In this document: piece by piece, positions 4,708 to 35,053 of the stretch
Position numbering within the stretch: position 1 is the first letter of the stretch
Layout of the letters: the number at the start of each line of letters is the position of its first letter
Assembly (NCBI GenBank): GCA_003280085.1
Contig: QCFY01000005.1
Coordinates: 1-64,000 of the forward strand
Length of the DNA stretch: 64,000 nt
Source of the DNA: Prochlorococcus sp. AG-363-O06
GTDB taxonomy: Bacteria > Cyanobacteriota > Cyanobacteriia > PCC-6307 > Cyanobiaceae
Direction of reading: 5' to 3'
Notes under the pieces: generated by a model
What the model was told of the DNA's origin: nothing
The model's database searches: none
The model's input: the letters and a program-made list of their open reading frames with translations, nothing else
Made by a program: the position numbers and the translations under genes

Positions 4708-7236
4708 TTAATTGCTTGGAACATCGCAGGTTATCTCTACTGGCAACGGGTCTACTTTCCAAATTGACTTACAATATTCCTTGATAGAACGGTCCGATGA
4801 AAAGAAGCCAGATCTAGCAGTGTTTAGCAAGGACATTCTATTCCATTCTAATCGATTTGCCCATGCTTTGCTAACACTTTCTTGGGCTTTCATATAGTCT
4901 GCAAAATCAGCCATTACAAAATAAGGGTCATTAGTTTTCAAATTGTTTATTAAAGGTCGAAAAAGTTCTGTATCTCCATTACTAAAATGACCAAGCTCTA
5001 TCAGCCGAATGGCTTCTGAAAGTTCTGGGAGAGCTTCAATATAACTTTTGGGATCATAATTATTATTTTGAAGTTCCATTATCTCAGATTCTGTTTTACC
5101 AAACAGGAAGAAGTTCTCATGCCCTACCTTCTCCCTGATTTCTATATTGGCCCCATCAAGTGTGCCTATGGTTAATGCCCCATTCATTGCAAATTTCATG
5201 TTTCCTGTTCCAGAAGCTTCTTTGCCAGCTGTAGAAATTTGCTCTGAAAGGTCCGAAGCCGGGTAAACTTGTTCTCCTAGCTTTACATTGTAATCAGGCA
5301 AGAAAACTACTCTTAGGCTTCCATCCATATCAGGATCAGCATTAACCATTTCTGCAATTCCATTTATTAACCGAATTATTAACTTTGCCATATAGTAACC
5401 AGGAGCTGCTTTGCCGCCAAAAATTACAGTTCGTGGGGCCATTGAATTAGTTGTTCCATTTTTAATTCTTAGATATTGACTTATAACTTGTAGGGCATTT
5501 AGATGTTGTCGTTTGTATTGATGTATTCGCTTTACTTGAACATCAAACATACTTGAAGGGTCTACTAATATCCCTGTTTGACGATGTATATAGCCTGCAA
5601 GTTTGCGTTTTGCCAACAATTTTGTTGTGCCAAATTTATGTAGGAATTCAGAATCATTGACCTTTGCTTCAAGTTTGTTGAGTAAATTTAGATTTGTAAT
5701 CCAATCTGAACCAACTTCATGGTCAAGCAAGGTTGATAGTTCTGGGTTGGCTAATGCCATCCATCGACGCGGTGTCACACCATTGGTGACATTGGTAAAT
5801 TTGTCAGGCCAAAGTAAAGCAAATTCTGGTAACAATTGACGCTTAATTAGATCAGAGTGTAGAGCCGCTACACCATTAACATGATGCGCTCCAATAGTTG
5901 CTAAATGTGCCATGCGAATAGCTTTCCCGCCTTCTTCGTCAATAATTGATAATTTCCTTAGGATTAAATCATTGCCTGGGAATTTTAGTCTGATTTGTTG
6001 CAGGAACCTTTGATTTATTTCATATATAAGTTCAAGATGCCTTGGTAATAGATCACTAAATAGTGAAAGATCCCATTTTTCAAGTGCTTCTGGTAATAAT
6101 GTGTGATTGGTATATGCAACTGATTTATTAGTTATTTCCCAGGCTTTTTCCCATTCCAATCTCTTCTCATCTATTAAAAGTCTCATTAATTCAGCTACTG
6201 CTATTGCAGGGTGAGTGTCATTCAGTTGAACAGTCCAATGATTTGGAAATTCTTCTATAGGAATACTTCGTTTATCTAAACTGCGGATCATGTCCTGGAG
6301 AGAGCAACTTACAAAGAAATGTTGCTGTTTGAGTCGAAGTCTTCTTCCTTCATCAGTACCATCATTGGGATATAAAACTTTGGAAAGAGTTTCCGAGCCG
6401 ACTTTTTCTTCAACTGCTCCGTAATAGTCACCGATATTGAAAGCATAGAAATCAAAGCTTTCTGTTGCGTCTGCACGCCATAGCCGTAAACGGTCACAAG
6501 TATTTACTCGATAGCCAAGTACTGGGACATCGTGTGGGATGCCAATTGCCTGTTCGGAGGGGATCCACCTAGACCTATATTTCCCGTTCTCGTCAAGATA
6601 GCTTTCTGTATTGCCTCCAAAACCAACTAAACAGGCTTCATCTGGTTGGGGTAATTCCCATGGCCAGCCTCCCTTGAGCCATTTGTCAGTGACTTCTACT
6701 TGCCAGCCATCACGAATAATTTGATTGAATATTCCAAACTCGTATCTAATGCCATAACCAATTGCAGGAACCTGCAAGGTGGCTAACGAGTCCATATAAC
6801 ATGCAGCTAAGCGGCCGAGCCCGCCATTACCAAGGCCTGGCTCTTCTTCTACTTCAAGAATGTCTGCTAAAGACTCAATCCCAAATCGCTTGAGAGCAGC
6901 TTCAGCTTCTTTTTGGATCCCAAGGTTTAAAAGATTGCTATTTAATTGTGGTCCAATAAGGAATTCTGCAGAAAGGTATGCAACTGTTTTTTGAGGTCTT
7001 GCTCTTATAGCTTCTTGACTAGCGAGGTATCTGGTCATAAGCCGATCTCTTACGGCATAGCTCAATGCCATATAGAGGTCATGAAGGCTTGCGCTGGTTG
7101 CAAGTTTTCCAAGAGTGAAGAATAGGTGCTCTGTCATCCCATCAAACACTGCATCTGCATTAATTCCAGCTCTTTCTGGGTCTGCATAGCAGCCTGGCGT
7201 TGGCAATCGAAGGTCTAATGGCTGTGAGCTGCTCAT
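4708..7236 (-). CDS. glgP: Glycogen phosphorylase
   Basis: This 842-aa enzyme releases glucose-1-phosphate from the non-reducing ends of glycogen, mobilising carbon stored by day. The length is normal for the GT35 family. The N-terminal half has AYLSAEFLIGPQL and VEEEPGLGNGGLGRLAACYMDS, both strong signatures. The C-terminal half has the pyridoxal-phosphate site KEASGTGNMKFAMNGALTIG, in which the Lys of NMKFAMNG is the expected Schiff-base residue. It starts at ATG 7236 and stands alone, divergent from the antiporter gene across about 270 nt. Nothing unusual was seen. Confidence 0.97.
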   Translation of the reverse strand: MSSSQPLDLRLPTPGCYADPERAGINADAVFDGMTEHLFFTLGKLATSASLHDLYMALSYAVRDRLMTRYLASQEAIRARPQKTVAYLSAEFLIGPQLNSNLLNLGIQKEAEAALKRFGIESLADILEVEEEPGLGNGGLGRLAACYMDSLATLQVPAIGYGIRYEFGIFNQIIRDGWQVEVTDKWLKGGWPWELPQPDEACLVGFGGNTESYLDENGKYRSRWIPSEQAIGIPHDVPVLGYRVNTCDRLRLWRADATESFDFYAFNIGDYYGAVEEKVGSETLSKVLYPNDGTDEGRRLRLKQQHFFVSCSLQDMIRSLDKRSIPIEEFPNHWTVQLNDTHPAIAVAELMRLLIDEKRLEWEKAWEITNKSVAYTNHTLLPEALEKWDLSLFSDLLPRHLELIYEINQRFLQQIRLKFPGNDLILRKLSIIDEEGGKAIRMAHLATIGAHHVNGVAALHSDLIKRQLLPEFALLWPDKFTNVTNGVTPRRWMALANPELSTLLDHEVGSDWITNLNLLNKLEAKVNDSEFLHKFGTTKLLAKRKLAGYIHRQTGILVDPSSMFDVQVKRIHQYKRQHLNALQVISQYLRIKNGTTNSMAPRTVIFGGKAAPGYYMAKLIIRLINGIAEMVNADPDMDGSLRVVFLPDYNVKLGEQVYPASDLSEQISTAGKEASGTGNMKFAMNGALTIGTLDGANIEIREKVGHENFFLFGKTESEIMELQNNNYDPKSYIEALPELSEAIRLIELGHFSNGDTELFRPLINNLKTNDPYFVMADFADYMKAQESVSKAWANRLEWNRMSLLNTARSGFFSSDRSIKEYCKSIWKVDPLPVEITCDVPSN

Positions 7237-10836: not shown

Positions 10837-12056
10837 CCAGCAGTTCCTGGTAGTCTGCCAACTGAAAGTTGATTTAATGGGTCAAACTGGCTTTTTACTT
10901 TCTCAATTATATGCTTCGAATTACTTTCTTTCCAGGAATCTAATTTGTTATTTATAAACTTTGGTTGATTCAGTATAACTAACTCGCCTCTCATTGCCTC
11001 TACTTTTGACCTTAGAGCTTTAATTTGATTTAACTTGCTTGATAAGTTCTCATTGCTTTTACTTTCTTCCCATCCTTCGCCAACCCCAAGGCTGGCCGAA
11101 ATACGCCAATTGAAATCTTTTAGATTTTTTAGTTCATTGCTTGAGATTAGATTATGTATTTTTGATGGAAGCAAGCTAATGCGAATTAACCAATAAGATT
11201 TTTTTAGATCAAGACTTAATTCCTTATCCGAAAGAAGCGGCCCATTCCAATCCTTTGTGTTTGAGAAGACTTTATATTCGTTAGAAAGTAAGTTTATATT
11301 CCTTAATTGATCTTTGATGCATTCTTGGCTCAAACTAGCTAAACCAATTTCCAGACTGATATGATTTTTATTTTCAATTAACCAGTCAAAATATTCTGGA
11401 CTAAAGCTTGTATTTAATAATTTAATTCTGAGACTCTCAAGTTCAGTAAGTTTCCCTTTTATATTTAAAACTATATGTGATTTTTTAATGGCTTGGGTTC
11501 TTAAGGTGAGTTGAGTAATGAGAGCCAATCCACCCCAGCTGCCGCATAGTAGTCGCATTAAATCATATCCAGCTACATTCTTGACAACCTTGCCCCCGGC
11601 TTTGGCAGAGACTCCATCAGTACGCATTATTCCTATTCCAATTATTTGATCCCTTACGGCCATATATTTGTGTCGCAAGCTTCCAGATAGGCCTCGGGCT
11701 ACTAGTCCTCCAATTGTGCCTGCGCTATAAATATCTGTTGTTGGTTTGCTTCCCGACGGCCAATCAATAGCCAACCATTGATTCGTTTCTTGAAGGCTGA
11801 GTTGTAACTCAGCCAAGGAAGCGCCAGCTTCAACCGTAATTGTTAAATCATCTATTGAGTGTTCAATAACTCTATTAAAATTTTTAATACTTAGTGCTTT
11901 TGATGATGGAAGAATAGGCGCCCCCCAGTCAAGGCGGCTTCCATATCCATATGGATGCCATTCCTCTTTTTTAGAATGGAATTCTTTGACAAGTTCACTC
12001 AGTTCATCTGCTGTAGCGGGTTCTAGAGCAGAATGATTTGGGGAAAAATTTTTCAA
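10833..12056 (-). CDS. glcE: Glycolate dehydrogenase FAD-binding subunit GlcE
   Basis: GlcE is the smaller FAD-binding subunit of glycolate dehydrogenase, which oxidises photorespiratory glycolate to glyoxylate. The N-terminal PCMH-type FAD domain shows VEAGASLAELQ, AGTIGGLVARGLSG and GGKVVKNVAGYDLMRL, and the protein ends with QLSVGRLPGTAG, both typical of GlcE. The open frame extends to 12212, but that extension overlaps the divergent kinase gene and has no family similarity. A TTG at 12056, in the context of TTGAAAAATTTTTC, gives about 407 aa and is my choice. Only 14 nt then separate the two divergent starts, so one or both promoters must lie inside coding sequence. Confidence 0.85.
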   Translation of the reverse strand: MKNFSPNHSALEPATADELSELVKEFHSKKEEWHPYGYGSRLDWGAPILPSSKALSIKNFNRVIEHSIDDLTITVEAGASLAELQLSLQETNQWLAIDWPSGSKPTTDIYSAGTIGGLVARGLSGSLRHKYMAVRDQIIGIGIMRTDGVSAKAGGKVVKNVAGYDLMRLLCGSWGGLALITQLTLRTQAIKKSHIVLNIKGKLTELESLRIKLLNTSFSPEYFDWLIENKNHISLEIGLASLSQECIKDQLRNINLLSNEYKVFSNTKDWNGPLLSDKELSLDLKKSYWLIRISLLPSKIHNLISSNELKNLKDFNWRISASLGVGEGWEESKSNENLSSKLNQIKALRSKVEAMRGELVILNQPKFINNKLDSWKESNSKHIIEKVKSQFDPLNQLSVGRLPGTAG

Positions 12057-12070
12057 GGCACGATGGTGAT

Positions 12071-13435
12071 ATGAAGATTGTTGTTTTTGATGATGACCCA
12101 ACTGGGTCTCAAACGGTACATGGTTGTTTGTTGTTATTGCGCTGGGATGTGCCTTTATTACGTGCGGGGTTGCGCCATGAATCCCCACTTCTTTTTGTAT
12201 TAGCCAATACAAGGGCTTTGTCCCCTGAGTTGGCTAAAGAAAGGAATGTTGAAGTTTGCATTGCCTTGAAGCAGGCCATGAGAGAAGAGGGATTCCAGTC
12301 TGAAGAAATTTTGCTTGTCAGTCGGGGTGACTCGACTCTTAGAGGTCATGGAGTTCTTGAACCACAAGTAATTTCAAACATGCTTGGGCCTTTTTCCGCA
12401 ACCCTTCATGTCCCAGCTTTTTTAGAAGGAGGACGATCAACTATTAATGGAATACATTTACTAGATGGCAGGCCTGTGCATGAAAGTTCGTTTGCTAAAG
12501 ATAGCCTTTTTGGTTATCAAACGAGCCATCTTGCTTGCTGGCTTGAAGAAAAGAGTTCTGGCCAGATTAAAAGTCAGCATGTAGAAAATATTACTTTATC
12601 GCAGCTAAATTTTGCTACTAAGAGTCAAGTTGGGATGAAAGAATTAGAGGAATCATTAGCAGCTTTTCATGATAATCAACAGGTGATTGTAGATGTTGAT
12701 AGGCCTCGACAATTAAGTGCTCTAGGTCAGGCTATTAATAATCTAATAGGGAAAAGACGTTTTTTATTTAGATCAGCAGCAAGTCTACTTAATGGCCTAT
12801 CTGGGATTCAGTCTGCTTTATTAAGCGAGAACTATATCAATAGACTTAAGCTGAAGAATCAACTAGGTAAACCGCGGCCAGGGATTGTTTCAGTAGGGTC
12901 ATATGTGCCTCTTTCAGATTCCCAACTAGAACGATTACTCGACCAACCTTCATGTTTGGGAGTTGAATTAGAACTAATAAGAGTATGTGAAGCCTTTGAC
13001 AAAGAACATTTAGATCATTCCTTTATTTCAAACTTAGAGCATGAATGTTTGATCAATTTGAAACGAATTATTTCACAAGATAAAACCCCAGTACTTTACA
13101 CCAGCAGGGGAGAGGTTTTATTTGATAAAGAAACAAAAAAATTAGATTTTGGAATTAGATTGGCTCGGATGATGTCAAGGATAATATTAGATATTTCGCA
13201 AGAAGTTGGTTATATAATTAGTAAAGGTGGGGTAACTACTAATGTCTTTTTAGCGGAAGGACTGCAATTAGATTCAGTTAAACTAGAAGGGCAAATTTTA
13301 CCAGGACTCTCAATTGTTACACCCTCTAAGAATAATCAAGTAGATAATTTGTATCCCCCAGTTGTGACTTTCCCTGGCAATTTAGGAGATAGTGAGACTC
13401 TTTATAAAGCCTGGAAGCTTATGGATTCCTGCTGA
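12071..13435 (+). CDS. Four-carbon acid sugar kinase family protein (DUF1537)
   Basis: This 454-aa protein resembles the YgbK/OtnK/DtnK family of ATP-dependent kinases acting on sugar acids. It opens with the family hallmark IVVFDDDPTGSQTVHG and has LLVSRGDSTLRGH about 75 residues later, as expected for the N-terminal substrate domain. The C-terminal nucleotide-binding domain contains YIISKGGVTTNV and a final VVTFPGNLGDSETL, both typical. I chose ATG 12071 because MKIVVFDDDPTG matches the family start; a TTG at 12038 is less likely. It sits between glcE and glcF on the opposite strand and its 3' end overlaps glcF by 54 nt. A link to glycolate or tetronate metabolism is inference from position. 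Confidence 0.85.
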   Translation: MKIVVFDDDPTGSQTVHGCLLLLRWDVPLLRAGLRHESPLLFVLANTRALSPELAKERNVEVCIALKQAMREEGFQSEEILLVSRGDSTLRGHGVLEPQVISNMLGPFSATLHVPAFLEGGRSTINGIHLLDGRPVHESSFAKDSLFGYQTSHLACWLEEKSSGQIKSQHVENITLSQLNFATKSQVGMKELEESLAAFHDNQQVIVDVDRPRQLSALGQAINNLIGKRRFLFRSAASLLNGLSGIQSALLSENYINRLKLKNQLGKPRPGIVSVGSYVPLSDSQLERLLDQPSCLGVELELIRVCEAFDKEHLDHSFISNLEHECLINLKRIISQDKTPVLYTSRGEVLFDKETKKLDFGIRLARMMSRIILDISQEVGYIISKGGVTTNVFLAEGLQLDSVKLEGQILPGLSIVTPSKNNQVDNLYPPVVTFPGNLGDSETLYKAWKLMDSC

Positions 13436-24093: not shown

Positions 24094-25128
24094 ATGGATT
24101 ACAAGACATCAGGTGTAGACGTCCAAGCTGGTCGCAGTTTTGTTGGTCGGATAAAGGCAAGTGTGGACTCAACCAGCCGTCCCGAAGTCATTGGCGGGCT
24201 TGGTGGATTTGGCGGTTTGATTCGTTTGCCAGCTGGTTTAACGAATCCTATTTTGGTTGCAGGAACAGATGGTGTAGGAACCAAACTAGAACTCGCCCAA
24301 GCATATAACACCCATTTTGGAGTGGGTTTAGACCTTGTCGCAATGTGTGTTAATGACGTCATTACAAGTGGAGCAGAACCCCTTTTCTTTCTTGATTACA
24401 TTGCTACTGGCTTCTTAACTCCTGAAGCATTGACAGAGGTTGTAGAGGGAATTGCTGATGGATGTAAGCGAAGTGGCTGTGCTTTGTTGGGAGGAGAAAC
24501 GGCAGAAATGCCTGGATTTTATTCAAAAGGAAGATATGATTTGGCTGGCTTTTGTGTAGCTGTAGTCGAAGAATCTAAATTAATTAAAACTAGTCAAGTA
24601 AATCTAGGTGACAAGATTATTGGAGTTGCGAGTAGTGGACTTCATAGCAATGGCTTTAGTTTGGTTCGTAAGGTTTTGAAAATACAAAATGCGGATGAAA
24701 ATACTCTTTTTGGCCAAAATAACTTGTCTCTGATTAAGACTTTGTTGAAGCCAACTGCATTTTATGTTCAGTTAGTAAAGGCTTTAATGCATGAAAAATT
24801 GCCAATAAATGGGTTGGCTCATATCACTGGAGGGGGATTGCCTGAAAATCTTCCTAGGTGCCTTCCAAAAGGGTTAACTGCCTTTATTGACACACACTCA
24901 TGGAAGAGGCCTGAAATATATTCTTGGTTACAGCAATCTGGTGATATACCAGAGTCTGATTTGTGGAATACCTTCAACCTTGGTGTTGGGTTTTGCTTAG
25001 TAGTTGAACCACAAGGTGTCGGACCAGTACTTGAGGTATGTAAATCTCAAGGTTTGAATGCATGGACGATGGGCCATGTTGCAGAGAGGTCTTCCTCTGG
25101 TGAAGAGTTAATTGGTTTACCAAAGTAG
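24094..25128 (+). CDS. purM: Phosphoribosylformylglycinamidine cyclo-ligase
   Basis: PurM (AIR synthetase) closes the imidazole ring in purine synthesis, using ATP. The 344-aa length is normal. Motifs include [43 protein letters not shown] and [13 protein letters not shown], all hallmarks of the PurM fold, then [17 protein letters not shown] and [13 protein letters not shown]. It starts at ATG 24094 about 130 nt after the divergent panC-cmk start. The next gene begins 165 nt downstream after a short hairpin. Confidence 0.97.
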
Positions 25129-25293: not shown

Positions 25294-26004
25294 ATGCCTT
25301 TTGATAACACACAGCGCCTTACGCGTCGGCGTAGCTCTGCAGGACCAGTACCACCAAGGCGTCCCCTTGGTGGACCAATGGATGGAGATGGTTCTCATCG
25401 CCAAGGACCTAGGCCCACTTTTTTGACTCTGAGGGACCATGGAAAAGTTTATGTAGCTGATTTGCCCAACCTTTCGGATGGTCAATTAGCCCATATAGGC
25501 AAAGAGGCAGAAGAAGTCCTTACAAGTCTTGAGAGGCGTTTGACTGATTTGGAGAAGGAATCAGTTGATGGATCTCCCGATAACGATACTTTTATTAAGG
25601 CTTCAACAAAGCGTGACGTCACTCTAAGATTCATAAGGGCTATTCAGGATGAACAAGAACATCGTCGCAATAACCCTGCTTTAAAGAGAGCAGCTAGTGA
25701 ATCCTTACCGCGAACATTTTTGGAAGTTGCGCGTCATAGATTACCTGGAGCTACTTTTGATTCCTTACTGCGCGAAGCTTTGGAAGCTTGCTCACAGGAA
25801 GATCAGTCAGAGGATGTACAGACAGAATCAAAAACAGAACCACAACAACAAAAAACAGAAACACAACAACCAACAACACCCACTAAGACTCTGATTGAAA
25901 AACCTGTAAAAGTTGTAGCTCTTAGATCGTCTACTAATGCAAATAGCATGCCAGTTGTCGTTAGTCCTGATCCCAATATTTCTGATACATCGACTAGTGC
26001 TTGA
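25294..26004 (+). CDS. Hypothetical protein with helical core and Gln/Thr-rich tail
   Basis: The 236-aa predicted protein starts at ATG 25294. Residues about 1-45 are basic and Pro/Gly-rich. Residues about 45-165 look like a compact domain with FLTLRDHGKVYVADLPNLS and a charged helix (HIGKEAEEVLTSLERRLTDLEKE). Residues about 170-200 are a low-complexity Gln/Thr/Glu linker (PQQQKTETQQPTTPT). No signal peptide or membrane segment is seen. The middle shows strong codon-level coherence, so it is a real gene. I do not recognise a named family. Confidence 0.75.
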   Translation: MPFDNTQRLTRRRSSAGPVPPRRPLGGPMDGDGSHRQGPRPTFLTLRDHGKVYVADLPNLSDGQLAHIGKEAEEVLTSLERRLTDLEKESVDGSPDNDTFIKASTKRDVTLRFIRAIQDEQEHRRNNPALKRAASESLPRTFLEVARHRLPGATFDSLLREALEACSQEDQSEDVQTESKTEPQQQKTETQQPTTPTKTLIEKPVKVVALRSSTNANSMPVVVSPDPNISDTSTSA

Positions 26005-26395: not shown

Positions 26396-26827
26396 GTGTC
26401 AAAACCTGTAGAATTTAGTAGCTTTTATAATGTTTTGAATGCGGTTAGGCAAGGTCAGACAGAGAAAAAAACTGAATTAGAAGCTATACTTAAAGCATAT
26501 AAGAGTTTGGAGAAATGTGATAGTTTCTTGGATGAGCTAGGTCAGATTTTTATTGGAGTTGGTATTAAAGAGCTATATATTTATTCTGGCACCGAAGACA
26601 TTCAATCCATTGGAAGTATTGATGCTGATGGCTGGGAAGCAATGGCAAAAGAAAAAAAGGCAGACTTGCCCCCATACCTTGCTAACTCAATGATTACCTT
26701 TGCTAAGGAGAACCAAATCCCTAAGAAGATATCCGAAAAATGGTCTGTATCAAGAAGAGAAGTAAATAAAAATATAATGCCTATGGCAAGATACATATGT
26801 GAAGGAATTCTTGATGCGATTGAATAA
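26396..26827 (+). CDS. Hypothetical protein at the start of the variable region
   Basis: The 143-aa predicted protein starts at GTG 26396. It is helical and charged, with SSFYNVLNAVRQGQTEKKTELE, a hydrophobic patch FLDELGQIFIGVGIKELYIYSG, and a C-terminal segment NIMPMARYICEGILDAIE. No known domain is recognised. It is the last gene before a 414-nt non-coding stretch that leads to the serine recombinase. The start codon has no strong ribosome binding site. Confidence 0.55.
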   Translation: MSKPVEFSSFYNVLNAVRQGQTEKKTELEAILKAYKSLEKCDSFLDELGQIFIGVGIKELYIYSGTEDIQSIGSIDADGWEAMAKEKKADLPPYLANSMITFAKENQIPKKISEKWSVSRREVNKNIMPMARYICEGILDAIE

Positions 26828-27031
26828 TGCTTTTAGGTTTTTCAATCAAAGATGGAAATCAGCTTCAGCAGTGCTTTGCTTTAGGAATTTAAATTGAACA
26901 AACTATGTATCAGGATTCAGGAATAATTAAAACTACACTGTAATCGTACTCCGCCCTCCATAACGTTTACGCTCTAAAGTGTCTTCCTGAAAGGCTCTGC
27001 AAAGAATTAAATGGTGTATTGCCTTCTCGTT

Positions 27032-27065
27032 AAAATAGTTTTAACTATATAGTTAAAACTATTTT
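27032..27065. repeat. 34-bp perfect palindrome upstream of recombinase
   Basis: AAAATAGTTTTAACTAT followed by its exact reverse complement forms a perfect 34-bp palindrome with no spacer. It lies about 175 nt upstream of the recombinase start. It could be a resolvase crossover or operator site, or form a cruciform. Its half-site TTTTAACTA recurs at 27122-27140 and 27215-27236. Confidence 0.8.
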
Positions 27066-27121
27066 CTATCTATTTTACTTGTTTTCAATAGGCTGAAATT
27101 GTCAAGCAGTTAAAAGATATA

Positions 27122-27140
27122 GATTTTAACTATAGTATTC
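27122..27140. promoter_or_regulatory. Second copy of the TTTTAACTA element
   Basis: GATTTTAACTATAGTATTC repeats one half of the 34-bp palindrome, with a partial second half. Together with the sites at 27032 and 27215, it gives three spaced sites ahead of the recombinase, like the I-II-III layout of res sites. Function is inference. Confidence 0.4.
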
Positions 27141-27214
27141 GGCTCATTCTAGGGTGGCCTTTTTTTAAGTTTTAATTTTTATTATACCCTGGCATTTCTT
27201 GGGAATGCTTGATA

Positions 27215-27236
27215 GGTTTTAACTAGATAGTTTTAG
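27215..27236. promoter_or_regulatory. Third copy of the TTTTAACTA element, next to the recombinase start
   Basis: GGTTTTAACTAGATAGTTTTAG has the same left arm and an imperfect right arm. It ends about 6 nt before the chosen TTG start, so binding here would block translation start or transcription of the recombinase gene, consistent with autoregulation. Function is inference. Confidence 0.4.
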
Positions 27237-27241
27237 GAACA

Positions 27242-27889
27242 TTGCCGCGTTTTTTTGTTAAGGAGAAGCAAGCTTTTTTAGCGCAACGTAAGCCCTTCCT
27301 AAGGGATGCCAGGCCAAAAATCTTTGGGTATGAGCGACTTTCTAATTCATTGGAATTATCTGCTGGTCATTTTGAGGCTTTTAAACAATTTGGTTGTTCA
27401 AAAATATTCCAGGATGCGTTGAATGGCTCCATAGAACCGAATGAAAGGCCTCAACTTAAGCTTGCTCTTGATGCTTTAGAGAAAGGTGATGTATTGGTTG
27501 TTCCTAAATTAAATAGACTTGGTTATACCAAGTTGGAAGTTCTAACTTTCATTCACCAATCTCAATTGAAGGGGATTAGCATTCGTACATTAGATGGATT
27601 GTTTGATACTGATAATTTTGATGGTCAGTTTGGGATGGTAGTTGTTTTTTTAAGGGCTTTAGCTGAGTTTGATAAATCTATTGCAAAAGAGCGATTAATC
27701 GAGAGTGTCGTTCGGAGAAGAGAATCGGGAGGTAATTTGGGTGGAAGGCCTAAAACAAGTGTTGCTAAAGAAAGATTGGTTCATCGCCTTAGAGAAGAAG
27801 GAAATTCCTATCGGAATATTCGCGATCAAACAGGACTTGCTATTTCAACGATTAGGAGAATTGTTTTGGAAAAGTCCAGATTGAATTAA
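27242..27889 (+). CDS. Serine recombinase (resolvase/invertase family)
   Basis: The 215-aa protein has the small serine recombinase layout. Residues about 25-165 are the catalytic domain: GYERLSNSLEL contains the nucleophile Ser at about position 34, followed by RPQLKLALDALEKGDVLVVPKLNRLGYT, and ALAEFDKSIAKERL matches the long E-helix. The C-terminal GGRPKTS linker and helix-turn-helix (EEGNSYRNIRDQTGLAISTIRR) are typical of Pin, Hin and Tn3 resolvases. It starts at TTG 27242; no ATG suits. The N-terminus has about 20 extra basic residues. Three palindromic elements lie just upstream. No transposase is adjacent, so it may serve inversion, dimer resolution or an older element. Confidence 0.85.
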   Translation: MPRFFVKEKQAFLAQRKPFLRDARPKIFGYERLSNSLELSAGHFEAFKQFGCSKIFQDALNGSIEPNERPQLKLALDALEKGDVLVVPKLNRLGYTKLEVLTFIHQSQLKGISIRTLDGLFDTDNFDGQFGMVVVFLRALAEFDKSIAKERLIESVVRRRESGGNLGGRPKTSVAKERLVHRLREEGNSYRNIRDQTGLAISTIRRIVLEKSRLN

Positions 27890-28316: not shown

Positions 28317-28529
28317 ATGGATGATGAGAACTGGAAGAATCAGTATAAAGAATGGAAGGCATTAAAACCATTCCAAATCAAATTGCTAGATGATGGGGCT
28401 CAGAGCCTTTCTCAAGCTTGGCTAATTAACGCAATGTGGTGTGAATGGAAAGATATCAAAAAACTCAAGGAGACAGAACTCCCTACTCTTGAGCGTTCGC
28501 TAAGCAACGACCCTTGGGAGGAATCATGA
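28317..28529 (+). CDS. Small acidic/Trp-rich protein, 70 aa
   Basis: The 70-aa frame starts at ATG 28317. It contains ENWKNQYKEWKALKPF and LSQAWLINAMWCEWKDIKKLK, with five Trp residues in the first two thirds and a charged tail. It overlaps the next gene by 4 nt (ATGA), and a GGGAGG purine run just inside its 3' end serves as the next gene's ribosome binding site. This arrangement makes a real two-gene operon likely. The function is unknown. Confidence 0.6.
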   Translation: MDDENWKNQYKEWKALKPFQIKLLDDGAQSLSQAWLINAMWCEWKDIKKLKETELPTLERSLSNDPWEES

Positions 28530-29574: not shown

Positions 29575-29710
29575 GTATCCCTGTATCTTATTTTTGGAAA
29601 GGGAGGTGAAGGATATTTACGCTTTAGCTCTACTGGCAACGAAGAGAATATAAAATTAATAGGGTCTCTTATTAGGCAAGCTATTAGAAGCTTTGAAGCA
29701 AACTAGTTTT

Positions 29711-31516
29711 ATGAACATTTCAGAGCACCTTGCTAACTTTATTTCAAAGAATCTCCATTGTAAAAAAGTTTTCACATTGACCGGCGGCGGAGCAATGTTC
29801 TTAAATGACGCCTTTGGCAATCATAAAAATATATCGTCTATTTATTGTCATCATGAACAAGCAGCATCTATGGCAGCAGTGGGCTATGCAAAATTAAACA
29901 ACATAGGTGTTTGTATTACTACAACTGGATGTGGTGCCACTAATGCGTTAACAGGTCTTCTAGATGCCTGGCAAGACAATGTCCCTGTTTTATTTATATC
30001 AGGACAAGTAAAGTCAAAAGAAACGTCATACTTATCTTCAGCATCATTACGAGCTTTTGGTGTGCAGGAATTTAATATTGTGCCTGTTGTTAAATCTTTC
30101 ACAAAGTCTGTCTATTTTGTAGAAAGTTTTGAGAAATATTGTCACGTTATAAAAAGATTAAAGTTTGATTTATTAGAAGGTAGACCAGGCCCTGTTTGGC
30201 TTGATATACCAATGGATATTCAAAGCAAGGTATTGACAGATCAGCAGGTTAAGATGCTAGAGAAACAAATCCATTCTACACAAGATAGTTCTTTAATTCC
30301 CATTGCTGATGAGAAATTGAATATTTTAGAAAATTATATTAAATATTGCTCAAAACCAACGATTCTTGTAGGAAATGGATTAAGACTATCCCAATATGGT
30401 AAAGGAATAAATTTGATTGAAAAGATTGCTTCCTCTAAATCAATTCCTGTATTAAGTACTTACTTAGGTGTTGACTTTTTTAGATCTGATTGCAATTTCT
30501 ATTTTGGTACTATTGGCCTTAAATCATCAAGAATTGCTAATATTATAATCAATAATTGTGACTTGCTAATAACTATAGGAAGTCGCCTTGCTACTTCAGC
30601 AATAGGTTTTGACTATGAGAAATTTGCACCTAATGCAAAAAAAATCATAGTTGATATTGATCCAGAAGAACATAAGAAGAAAACAATAAATGCAGATTTA
30701 ATCATTGAAGCCGATGCAACTGAGTTCACAAAAGAGTTACTGCCTCTGTTCAAGGCTAATGATTACAAGAGTTGGTTATCAAAATGTCAGAAAGCTGCCT
30801 CTCAACTGCCAATTCAGGAAGTGTTTAGTTCCGACAAATCAATAAGTATTTATGATGTTGTTAGACTGATTAGTAATCATTCAAATGATAATGATATCCT
30901 TGTAAGTGATGCTGGAAGCTCATACTATGTAAGTGCGATAATGTTTTCGAAAAGAAAATATCAAAGATATATAACTTCTGGTGCCCAGGCAGATATGGGA
31001 TTTGCTCTGCCTGCTGGCATTGGATGTGCTTTTGCCACAAGTGATCTTAATCGTACGCATGTGATAACTGGGGATGGCTCCTTTCAACTTAATATTCAGG
31101 AATTACAAACTATAAAGACTTACAAGCAGAATCTAACAGTTTATGTCCTAAATAATAATGGCTATCTATCCATTAGGACAACTCAAAATAATTTCTTTAA
31201 AGGTCGGCAATGTGGTAATGATCCATCCACTGGTGTTGAATTTCCTGAATTATCTAAAATTGCGATTGCATATGGGATAACATTCTTCAGATTCAATCAA
31301 ATCAACAAGTTTATTGATTTTCTAAAGAGAAACAAATCATGCACAGGGCCACAAATTATAGAAATCATATGTCCAGAAAATGAGGAAATAATTCCAAGGA
31401 ATTTAACTCAAAAAGATGATAATGGTCAACTAAGATCTGCACCTCTGACAAGAATGTATCCCCCAATAGAGCAAAGCATCGTTAATAAGTTAACGTCTTT
31501 GGGCTTTGATTTATGA
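29711..31516 (+). CDS. ThDP-dependent enzyme, acetolactate-synthase-like
   Basis: The 601-aa protein has the three-domain pyruvate oxidase/IlvB layout. The N-terminal pyrimidine domain has FTLTGGGAMFLNDAF and the cofactor-activating Glu in HHEQAASMAAVGYAK. The C-terminal pyrophosphate domain has VITGDGSFQLNIQELQTIKTYK and NNNGYLSIR, the GDG-Nx26-N type Mg-ThDP site. Proteins of this type without an acetolactate synthase small subunit are common in surface-sugar and lipid gene clusters, where they may act on unusual keto acids. It faces a GT61-type gene (gap 8 nt). I chose ATG 29711 over TTG 29693. The substrate is unknown. Confidence 0.85.
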   Translation: MNISEHLANFISKNLHCKKVFTLTGGGAMFLNDAFGNHKNISSIYCHHEQAASMAAVGYAKLNNIGVCITTTGCGATNALTGLLDAWQDNVPVLFISGQVKSKETSYLSSASLRAFGVQEFNIVPVVKSFTKSVYFVESFEKYCHVIKRLKFDLLEGRPGPVWLDIPMDIQSKVLTDQQVKMLEKQIHSTQDSSLIPIADEKLNILENYIKYCSKPTILVGNGLRLSQYGKGINLIEKIASSKSIPVLSTYLGVDFFRSDCNFYFGTIGLKSSRIANIIINNCDLLITIGSRLATSAIGFDYEKFAPNAKKIIVDIDPEEHKKKTINADLIIEADATEFTKELLPLFKANDYKSWLSKCQKAASQLPIQEVFSSDKSISIYDVVRLISNHSNDNDILVSDAGSSYYVSAIMFSKRKYQRYITSGAQADMGFALPAGIGCAFATSDLNRTHVITGDGSFQLNIQELQTIKTYKQNLTVYVLNNNGYLSIRTTQNNFFKGRQCGNDPSTGVEFPELSKIAIAYGITFFRFNQINKFIDFLKRNKSCTGPQIIEIICPENEEIIPRNLTQKDDNGQLRSAPLTRMYPPIEQSIVNKLTSLGFDL

Positions 31517-33234: not shown

Positions 33235-33300
33235 GTAGGTGAATTATTGGGATAATGGGAAGAGGAATGGTAATCAGCAATTCACCTACCATTCACCTAC
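33235..33300. repeat. GTAGGTGAAT inverted and direct repeats next to tRNA-Cys
   Basis: GTAGGTGAATT at 33235-33245 is repeated inverted as AATTCACCTAC at 33279-33289, and a third copy, ATTCACCTAC, follows at 33291-33300. The group ends 66 nt before the 3' end of tRNA-Cys. Such spaced repeats beside a tRNA 3' end are reminiscent of integrase arm or core sites, but no integrase gene is present. Confidence 0.5.
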
Positions 33301-33366
33301 TCCACCGAATGAGGAAGAGAGACCTAATAATTGAGTTGCTGCAACTGATTACAGGATTTGGTAAGA

Positions 33367-33437
33367 AGGCGGCACCCAGATTCGAACTGGGGATAAAGGA
33401 TTTGCAATCCTCTGCCTTACCACTTGGCCATGCCGCC
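33367..33437 (-). tRNA. tRNA-Cys (GCA anticodon)
   Basis: Read on the minus strand, the 71-nt sequence folds with acceptor arm GGCGGCA pairing with TGCCGCC and U at the discriminator position, as expected for cysteine. The anticodon arm is GGATTGCAAATCC with anticodon GCA, and the T arm contains GTTCGAATC. The 3' end points towards the variable region at 26-33 kb, the orientation expected if the tRNA served as an attachment site. Confidence 0.95.
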
Positions 33438-33446
33438 ATTAAAGAA

Positions 33447-34727
33447 ATGGATCACCCTCCAGCGGATCGTATCAGTCATGGGACTAAGGATCTTGTAGTT
33501 CTTTCAAATGGGCATGGTGAAGATTTGATAGCTATGCGTGTTATTGATTGTATCCATATTGCTCACCCAAGAATTTCAATCAAAGTTTTACCACTAGTAG
33601 GAGAAGGTAAAGTTTTTGATATAGGAATTTCAGCTGGCTGGCTGAAAAGACTTGGTTCTCCTATGCGTTTGCCTAGTGGAGGTTTTAGTAATCAGAGTTT
33701 TCGGGGGTTTTGGGCTGATATTGCTGAGGGCTTATTTCAAAACACTCTTAAACAATGGCTCATAGTTCGGCGAGAAGCTCGAGAAGGAAATGTAATTCTT
33801 GCGGTTGGAGATGTGTTACCTCTTGTGTTTGCTTGGAGTAGTGGTGGCGAGTTCGGCTTTATTGGCACTCCAAAAAGTGATTACACATGGCGTAGTGGAC
33901 CTGGACAGGCTTTTAGTGATTTTTATCACCGATTAAAAGGCTCTGAATGGGATCCCTGGGAATGGTTTTTGATGCGCTCTTCTCGCTGTCAAATGGTTGT
34001 TGCAAGGGACAGGCTCACCGCACGTGGCTTGAGGAGGCATGGAGTCAAGGCGCAAGTATGTGGCAATCCAATGATGGATGGGTTTAAGAAGACGCAAATG
34101 CCTTTGGCACTTGCTTCCAAACGTCGTTTACTTTTGTTGTGTGGTAGCCGTATGCCTGAAGCAATAGTTAATTTTCAAAATATCTTGAAAGCAATAAATC
34201 TGATTCGAACTAAGGAGCCAATGTCCATTTTGGTTGCCCTTGGAGCTGAGCCTAGTTGTGATGAACTCTGCAGCGTTTTGCAAGATTTTGAATATAAAGC
34301 GACTAGTTCTTTTGATGAAAATATAGGAGCTAAATCATGCTGGGAGAAAGGCCCTCTTCGAATTTTCTTGGGTCCAGGTAGATTTTCAATTTGGGCATCG
34401 TGGGTAGAGTTGGGCATTGCTAATGCAGGTACAGCTACAGAGCAATTAATTGGCCTAGGGGTTCCAGCAGTTTCTTTGCCAGGGCATGGCCCTCAGTTTA
34501 ATAAGCATTTTGCTAAGAGGCAAAGTCGCTTGTTAGGTGGTGGTGTAATGCCTTGTAAAACACCTAAAAGATTGGCGGAGGTAGTGGACTGTCTTCTTGG
34601 GGATAAAATCCTTTTGCATAGGGTTGGTAATGTTGGAGTAAAGCGTATGGGATCTTCCGGTGGGAGTTTAATGATCGCTTCTTTAGTTAGTAAGCTTTTA
34701 TTAGGTGAAGCTGTTGAGCATATGTAG
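33447..34727 (+). CDS. Lipid-A-disaccharide-synthase-related protein
   Basis: This 426-aa protein resembles the cyanobacterial family annotated as lipid-A-disaccharide synthase-related, a GT-B glycosyltransferase fold distinct from LpxB. Landmarks are VVLSNGHGEDLIAMRVI near the N-terminus, GDVLPLVFAWSSGGEFGFIGTPKSDY, CQMVVARDRLTARGLRRHG and the C-terminal nucleotide-sugar region GIANAGTATEQLIGLGVPAVSLPGHGPQFN. I chose ATG 33447, 9 nt after the divergent tRNA; the frame upstream runs through the tRNA and is not coding. Its substrate is unknown. Confidence 0.82.
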   Translation: MDHPPADRISHGTKDLVVLSNGHGEDLIAMRVIDCIHIAHPRISIKVLPLVGEGKVFDIGISAGWLKRLGSPMRLPSGGFSNQSFRGFWADIAEGLFQNTLKQWLIVRREAREGNVILAVGDVLPLVFAWSSGGEFGFIGTPKSDYTWRSGPGQAFSDFYHRLKGSEWDPWEWFLMRSSRCQMVVARDRLTARGLRRHGVKAQVCGNPMMDGFKKTQMPLALASKRRLLLLCGSRMPEAIVNFQNILKAINLIRTKEPMSILVALGAEPSCDELCSVLQDFEYKATSSFDENIGAKSCWEKGPLRIFLGPGRFSIWASWVELGIANAGTATEQLIGLGVPAVSLPGHGPQFNKHFAKRQSRLLGGGVMPCKTPKRLAEVVDCLLGDKILLHRVGNVGVKRMGSSGGSLMIASLVSKLLLGEAVEHM

Positions 34728-34783
34728 CAAGAAAATCATGTTCTCATTTGATTGAGATACTTAAATTCCACAACGATCTACAA

Positions 34784-35053
34784 ATGCCTACTATTGAGGA
34801 CCATTCTTTTCTGAAAATATGCGCAGAGCTAGCTAATTGTTTAAGCATTAGTCTTGCTTCTGCTCGAAGGAAAGTAGATCTTGCAGCTAGTCGAGCTGGT
34901 TCAAAGGATCTTGCTTCTAGAAAAATAATTGCTGAAAAATTGTTAACTAAAGCACGTCTGCAGTGCCAAGAAGGTAATCAATCTTCATCAGCTCAGTTGG
35001 ATATATTGCTTCAGGCACTTGAAGAAGAAGAAAATTTTATGACTGAAGATTAA
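34784..35053 (+). CDS. Conserved-looking small helical protein, 89 aa
   Basis: The predicted 89-aa protein starts at ATG 34784; a TTG at 34748 would add 12 residues. It is entirely helical in character (LKICAELANCLSISLASARRKVDLAASRAG) and ends in an acidic tail with LLQALEEEENF. It has no recognised domain. It follows the lipid-A-related gene by 56 nt on the same strand and converges with the RNase D gene (gap 9 nt). Confidence 0.65.
   Translation: MPTIEDHSFLKICAELANCLSISLASARRKVDLAASRAGSKDLASRKIIAEKLLTKARLQCQEGNQSSSAQLDILLQALEEEENFMTED

Follow-up and report, generated by a model that had tools for sequence, protein, structure and literature searches.

The locus and its repeat array

The window, a stretch of 64,000 nucleotides from Prochlorococcus sp. 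AG-363-O06, carries a gene of the serine recombinase fold in a chromosomal slot with purM and o236 on its left and o490 and o101 on its right, and a set of short repeats lies just upstream of this gene. The features considered here are as follows.

24094-25128: purM, upstream of o236
25294-26004, plus strand: o236, the protein after purM; left flank of the conserved slot
27032-27065, no strand: site 1, a 34-bp perfect palindrome of two inverted ATAGTTTTAACTAT copies with AAA/TTT flanks
27118-27134, plus strand: site 2, TATAGATTTTAACTATA, an imperfect dyad that includes TTTTAACTA at 27124-27132
27211-27235, plus strand: site 3, GATAGGTTTTAACTAGATAGTTTTA, an imperfect inverted repeat that includes TTTTAACTA at 27217-27225
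27227-27241, plus strand: start-proximal half-site, ATAGTTTTAGGAACA, of which 13 of 15 letters equal ATAGTTTCTGGAACA adjoining the start codon of intact homologues (one intact clade, compared by eye)
27242-27889, plus strand: serine-recombinase-fold gene, 215 amino acids, TTG start
27737-27889 (approximate limits), plus strand: GGRPK arm and helix-turn-helix at the C terminus, which degenerate homologues conserve
33255-34727, plus strand: o490, right flank of the conserved slot
34748-35053: o101, after o490

Among the open reading frames (ORFs) listed around the recombinase there is no transposase gene, in agreement with the preliminary description of this DNA. A tRNA-Cys is predicted at 33367-33437 on the minus strand, where it overlaps the beginning of o490, and the stretch from the recombinase to this tRNA differs among genomes. 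A 607-amino-acid ORF (29693-31516) in the variable part of the slot, after the recombinase and before o490, resembles a thiamine-diphosphate-dependent enzyme and is a candidate for one. Two smaller ORFs recur elsewhere: one of 143 amino acids (26396-26827) close to the recombinase gene of L043, L050, and L055, and one of 70 amino acids (28317-28529) that directly follows it in L045 and L058, with ∼60% identity.

The 34-base self-complementary palindrome reported earlier at 27032-27065 is exact. It is the only perfect palindrome in the window with arms of at least 8 nt, and its arms of 17 nt compare with longest arms of 11 in 30 simulated windows and 9 in 1000 shuffled versions of the surrounding intergenic sequence. 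The earlier mention of three palindromic sites holds for site 1, the one full dyad of the three, and is overstated for the others, since site 2 is a weak dyad with 5-bp arms and site 3 an imperfect one. If site 3 is taken as 27211-27241, it ends in GGAACA (27236-27241), which abuts the TTG start at 27242. The half-site does recur ahead of the recombinase start, as described, with TTTTAACTA at 27124 and 27217 in addition to the two copies in the palindrome (27039 and 27050). These four copies within 187 bases make up most of the five found in the window, where 1.76 are expected; shuffles of 26829-27241 contained 0.04 copies on average, and none of 2000 reached four. The TTTTAACTA repeats and the start-proximal half-site have ATAG-TTT in common. 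All sites lie upstream of the recombinase start or adjoin it, which is the position required of an autoregulated operator.

The recombinase and its active site

The adjacent gene had been called a serine recombinase, and this identification is confirmed by Pfam (PF00239, 1.6e-17, which places the protein in the resolvase/invertase family), by sequence matches to solved structures, and by the predicted fold, with an AlphaFold model that matches Tn3 and gamma-delta resolvase. The match to HTH_7 is below the cut-off of that model. At the nine catalytic positions (gamma-delta numbering), the complete set R8, S10, R45, D67, R68, R71, R119, E124, and R125 reads RSRDRRRER, while the window protein reads RSRNRYKER and is thus incomplete: R8, S10, R45, R68, E124, and R125 are retained, and D67N, R71Y, and R119K are altered. 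D67 and R119 matter for catalysis. R71 has been proposed to touch the scissile phosphate (PMC4499144). These changes suggest that the window protein itself may be catalytically dead, a reading that is uncertain because S10, R8, R45, R68, E124, and R125 are still present. Elsewhere in the same genome, at G000:C9:8341-8539 (L002, L004), there is a C-terminal fragment with a frameshift that stems from an intact-type member of the family.

Loss of catalytic residues in fixed chromosomal slots

Homologues were collected from two samples, the first of 201 family genomes, 75 of which had a match at an E value of ≤1e-8, and the second of 400 genomes, 174 of which matched a profile at ≤1e-12. Named records put the recombinase family in Prochlorococcus and relatives. 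The preliminary description was right to speak of a lineage-specific cyanobacterial system. In many genomes, including those of most degenerate homologues, the gene is flanked by purM-o236 on one side and o490-o101 on the other. Counted as one row per distinct protein, this slot holds 11 proteins without S10, 4 with S10 but at most seven of the nine residues, 1 with eight of nine, and 3 intact ones; the true number of same-slot homologues is somewhat lower, because the rows include one fragment and two distant resolvase relatives. Several same-slot proteins retain almost nothing of the active site, reading TNRHHNNNH, VHKNCDPSQ, or FCREYNSAN at the nine positions, and another reads NTRRADAEN. 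High-light Prochlorococcus has its copy in a separate fixed slot, from lipA to psaL, where 53 of 58 loci lack S10 (L132:4995-5618, from Prochlorococcus marinus MIT 9302, is one of the 58), with S10 usually replaced by T or I. Copies outside these two slots are mostly intact. As read from the alignments, loss of the active site is widespread among the homologues and is found in fixed chromosomal slots. The fold appears to outlast it, given that for L139, a homologue with strong degeneration, AlphaFold still predicts a resolvase fold that matches Tn3 and gamma-delta resolvase. On the tree, a minimum of 11 changes between the intact and the changed state is needed, of which at least 4 are forced by starred branches; many degenerate rows are long branches of unsure placement, which makes any number of independent losses taken from the tree uncertain.

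One locus in the purM-o490 region (L071) has two copies ∼7 kb apart, an intact one at 4985-5527 and a degenerate one at 11872-12423 that carries an in-frame stop.

The C-terminal DNA-binding part is conserved while the N-domain diverges, as expected of proteins that retain DNA binding but not catalysis. Mean identity in the N-domain and the C-terminal part, respectively, is 29% and 68% in 16 degenerate sequences, all of which have open frames, 68% and 82% in 21 mostly intact sequences, and 82% and 96% in 49 high-light sequences. The median pairwise dN/dS, from pairs that are not independent, is 0.27 for the N-domain versus 0.04 for the C-part in the high-light group and 0.09 versus 0.04 in the intact set. 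For the degenerate set dN/dS was uninformative, being saturated with 1 and 4 usable pairs. The DNA-reading helix is almost invariant across the recombinase family. Judged by these comparisons, the two domains are under different constraint.

Sites upstream of related genes

The preliminary description had named the absence of the repeats upstream of orthologous recombinases as a refutation, and the outcome of this check is mixed. Most intact homologues examined are preceded by a putative site array of TGTTCC-type half-sites ∼80 bp apart, at about -238, -155, and -73, with GGAACA directly before the start codon, while a few (L036, L059, and L074) have little or no TGTTCC/GGAACA array. The window gene retains GGAACA directly before its TTG, inside ATAGTTTTAGGAACA, and one idea is that its array is the intact one shifted by a deletion of ∼48 bp. 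The exact motif is much rarer. TTTTAACTA occurs upstream of 3 of 15 degenerate homologues, within ∼250 bp (P ∼0.003 by shuffles), two of which (G121 and G030) belong to one genus, and in 1 of 93 other upstream regions. In total, the 3.75 kb upstream of the 15 degenerate homologues contain it four times against 0.35 expected from shuffles, and the remaining 144.5 kb of sequence at these loci contain it three times. Two degenerate homologues have CTATAG-N6-CTATAG dyads upstream. In the high-light group, 58 sequences share a different conserved block before the start, made up of TTTGTACTAAAAAGTGTTTTTTT and TTGATACAG; it may be partly promoter. A search of three high-light genomes for further copies of this block gave no convincing second site, and the same was true of the site 1 core in the window's own genome, where it was found at a single locus of the 1.42-Mb assembly (77% complete) with three mismatches allowed.

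A recombinase that probably became an autoregulated DNA-binding protein

Taken together, the loss of active-site residues, the preserved DNA-binding end, and the position of the sites at the gene start make an autoregulated operator the favored one of the functions that had been proposed for the array. We consider it probable that a small serine recombinase of the resolvase/invertase fold has been domesticated here as an autoregulated DNA-binding regulator, with the upstream sites as its own operator. The catalytic chemistry would have been lost, or be in the course of being lost, while the fold, presumably oligomerization, and the DNA-binding helix-turn-helix would be retained. The window protein would bind its three upstream sites, possibly looping the DNA between them, and the bound protein would keep its own gene repressed, in the way Tn3 resolvase acts at res. 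Both the binding and the ensuing repression are inferred from sequence. The protein may have targets beyond its own gene; no wider regulon was seen, given that the searches with the site 1 core and with the high-light block gave no convincing second site. Our wider proposal, which we consider slightly more likely than not, is that a chromosomal serine recombinase family of marine picocyanobacteria repeatedly lost catalysis and gave rise to autoregulated regulators, including the conserved high-light copy, with operators that diverged between lineages.

The weakest link in the operator reading is the binding site, as the window half-site differs from TGTTCC. A change of target from TGTTCC to TTTTAACTA is unexpected, because the DNA-reading helix is almost invariant in the family. 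Either the window protein reads the AT-rich inner part that is common to the repeats and the start-proximal half-site, or the TTTTAACTA repeats are the target of another factor. In the latter case, the TTTTAACTA palindromes would be operators of a different regulator, and the recombinase-derived protein would bind the GGAACA at the start codon alone or act elsewhere. The near invariance of the recognition helix in spite of the changed half-site speaks for this, but TTTTAACTA is confined to the recombinase locus in its own genome and enriched upstream of homologues of the recombinase, which favors the local protein as the binder, and the shared ATAG-TTT also connects the repeats with the start-proximal half-site. 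We therefore regard a different regulator as rather unlikely.

That the protein still recombines, with the three sites forming a res-type or invertible-switch site, is suggested by the three spaced sites and 34-bp dyad beside a gene of resolvase fold, by the retention of S10 and five more of the nine catalytic residues, and by similar site arrays at intact homologues. However, D67, R71, and R119 are changed, same-slot homologues are nearly devoid of an active site, and the spacings of ∼85 and ∼93 bp between the window sites are unlike those of the Tn3 res site. The assembly, 77% complete over 1.42 Mb, contained neither a second copy of the array or a partner site nor two inverted recombination sites around a segment. 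Because there is a single array, no partner, and a loss of catalytic residues both in the window protein and in the same slot of other genomes, the resolution site and the invertible switch put forward in the preliminary description are both disfavored, and we consider working recombination improbable. Still less credit is due to the view that the gene is a leftover recombinase decaying under relaxed selection, with a palindrome that arose by chance or serves as a nonfunctional hairpin or as an RNA terminator or attenuator. The fast divergence of the N-domain and the broken second copy in the same genome would fit decay, and the palindrome folds as an AU-only RNA hairpin of -13.3 kcal/mol; against this, the frames are open and the DNA-binding part is 68% identical in 16 diverged genomes, the C-part has a low dN/dS in the high-light group, TTTTAACTA recurs at homologues, and a search for a terminator-like site found none. 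This makes decay very improbable.

If domestication as an autoregulated regulator is correct, very abundant ocean phototrophs with streamlined genomes have on more than one occasion made a regulator out of an enzyme of mobile elements. The intact, partly lost, and fully lost forms would then be testable intermediates on the way from a recombinase to a DNA-binding protein, and a function could be assigned to a conserved gene adjoining lipA in high-light Prochlorococcus.

Comparison with known systems

In the open-access literature, which leaves most subscription journals outside, we found no account of the window gene or its family. The closest parallel is the Tn3/gamma-delta resolvase (TnpR), which the window protein resembles in fold (best PDB matches 5cy1 and 1gdt) and whose res site, like the putative array here, comprises a number of spaced sites ahead of the recombinase gene, with the last one adjoining it. 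TnpR represses its own gene by binding to res (PMC7157771). Given that Tn3 resolvase already autoregulates while active, the proposed change requires no new mechanism, merely the loss of the recombination half. Unlike the Tn3/gamma-delta system, the locus has no transposase or transposon among the ORFs around it, the active site is partly lost, the site spacing is ∼85 to 93 bp, and the genome has one array, in a fixed chromosomal slot. Among DNA invertases, Gin entries (4m6f and 3uj3) are the closest solved-structure sequence matches of the window protein, and the NCBIfam models of XisF and Mpi match it weakly, with 41 and 36 bits against cut-offs of 375 and 272. In contrast to the DNA invertases (Hin, Gin, and Mpi) and XisF, neither an invertible segment nor a second site was found here.

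Regulators of mobile elements recruited by their hosts (PMC8987985) appear to be of the same general kind, in that a DNA-binding protein of a mobile element is kept as a host regulator; the portion of that work drawn on here covers Xre and antitoxin regulators and invertases rather than recombinases turned regulators. A serine recombinase can lose catalysis and keep its hold on DNA, as in Tn3 NM S10A, a dead variant that remains capable of binding and synapsing its sites (PMC4499144). Such dead mutants are laboratory-made, whereas the loss in the family of the window protein is natural and recurrent.
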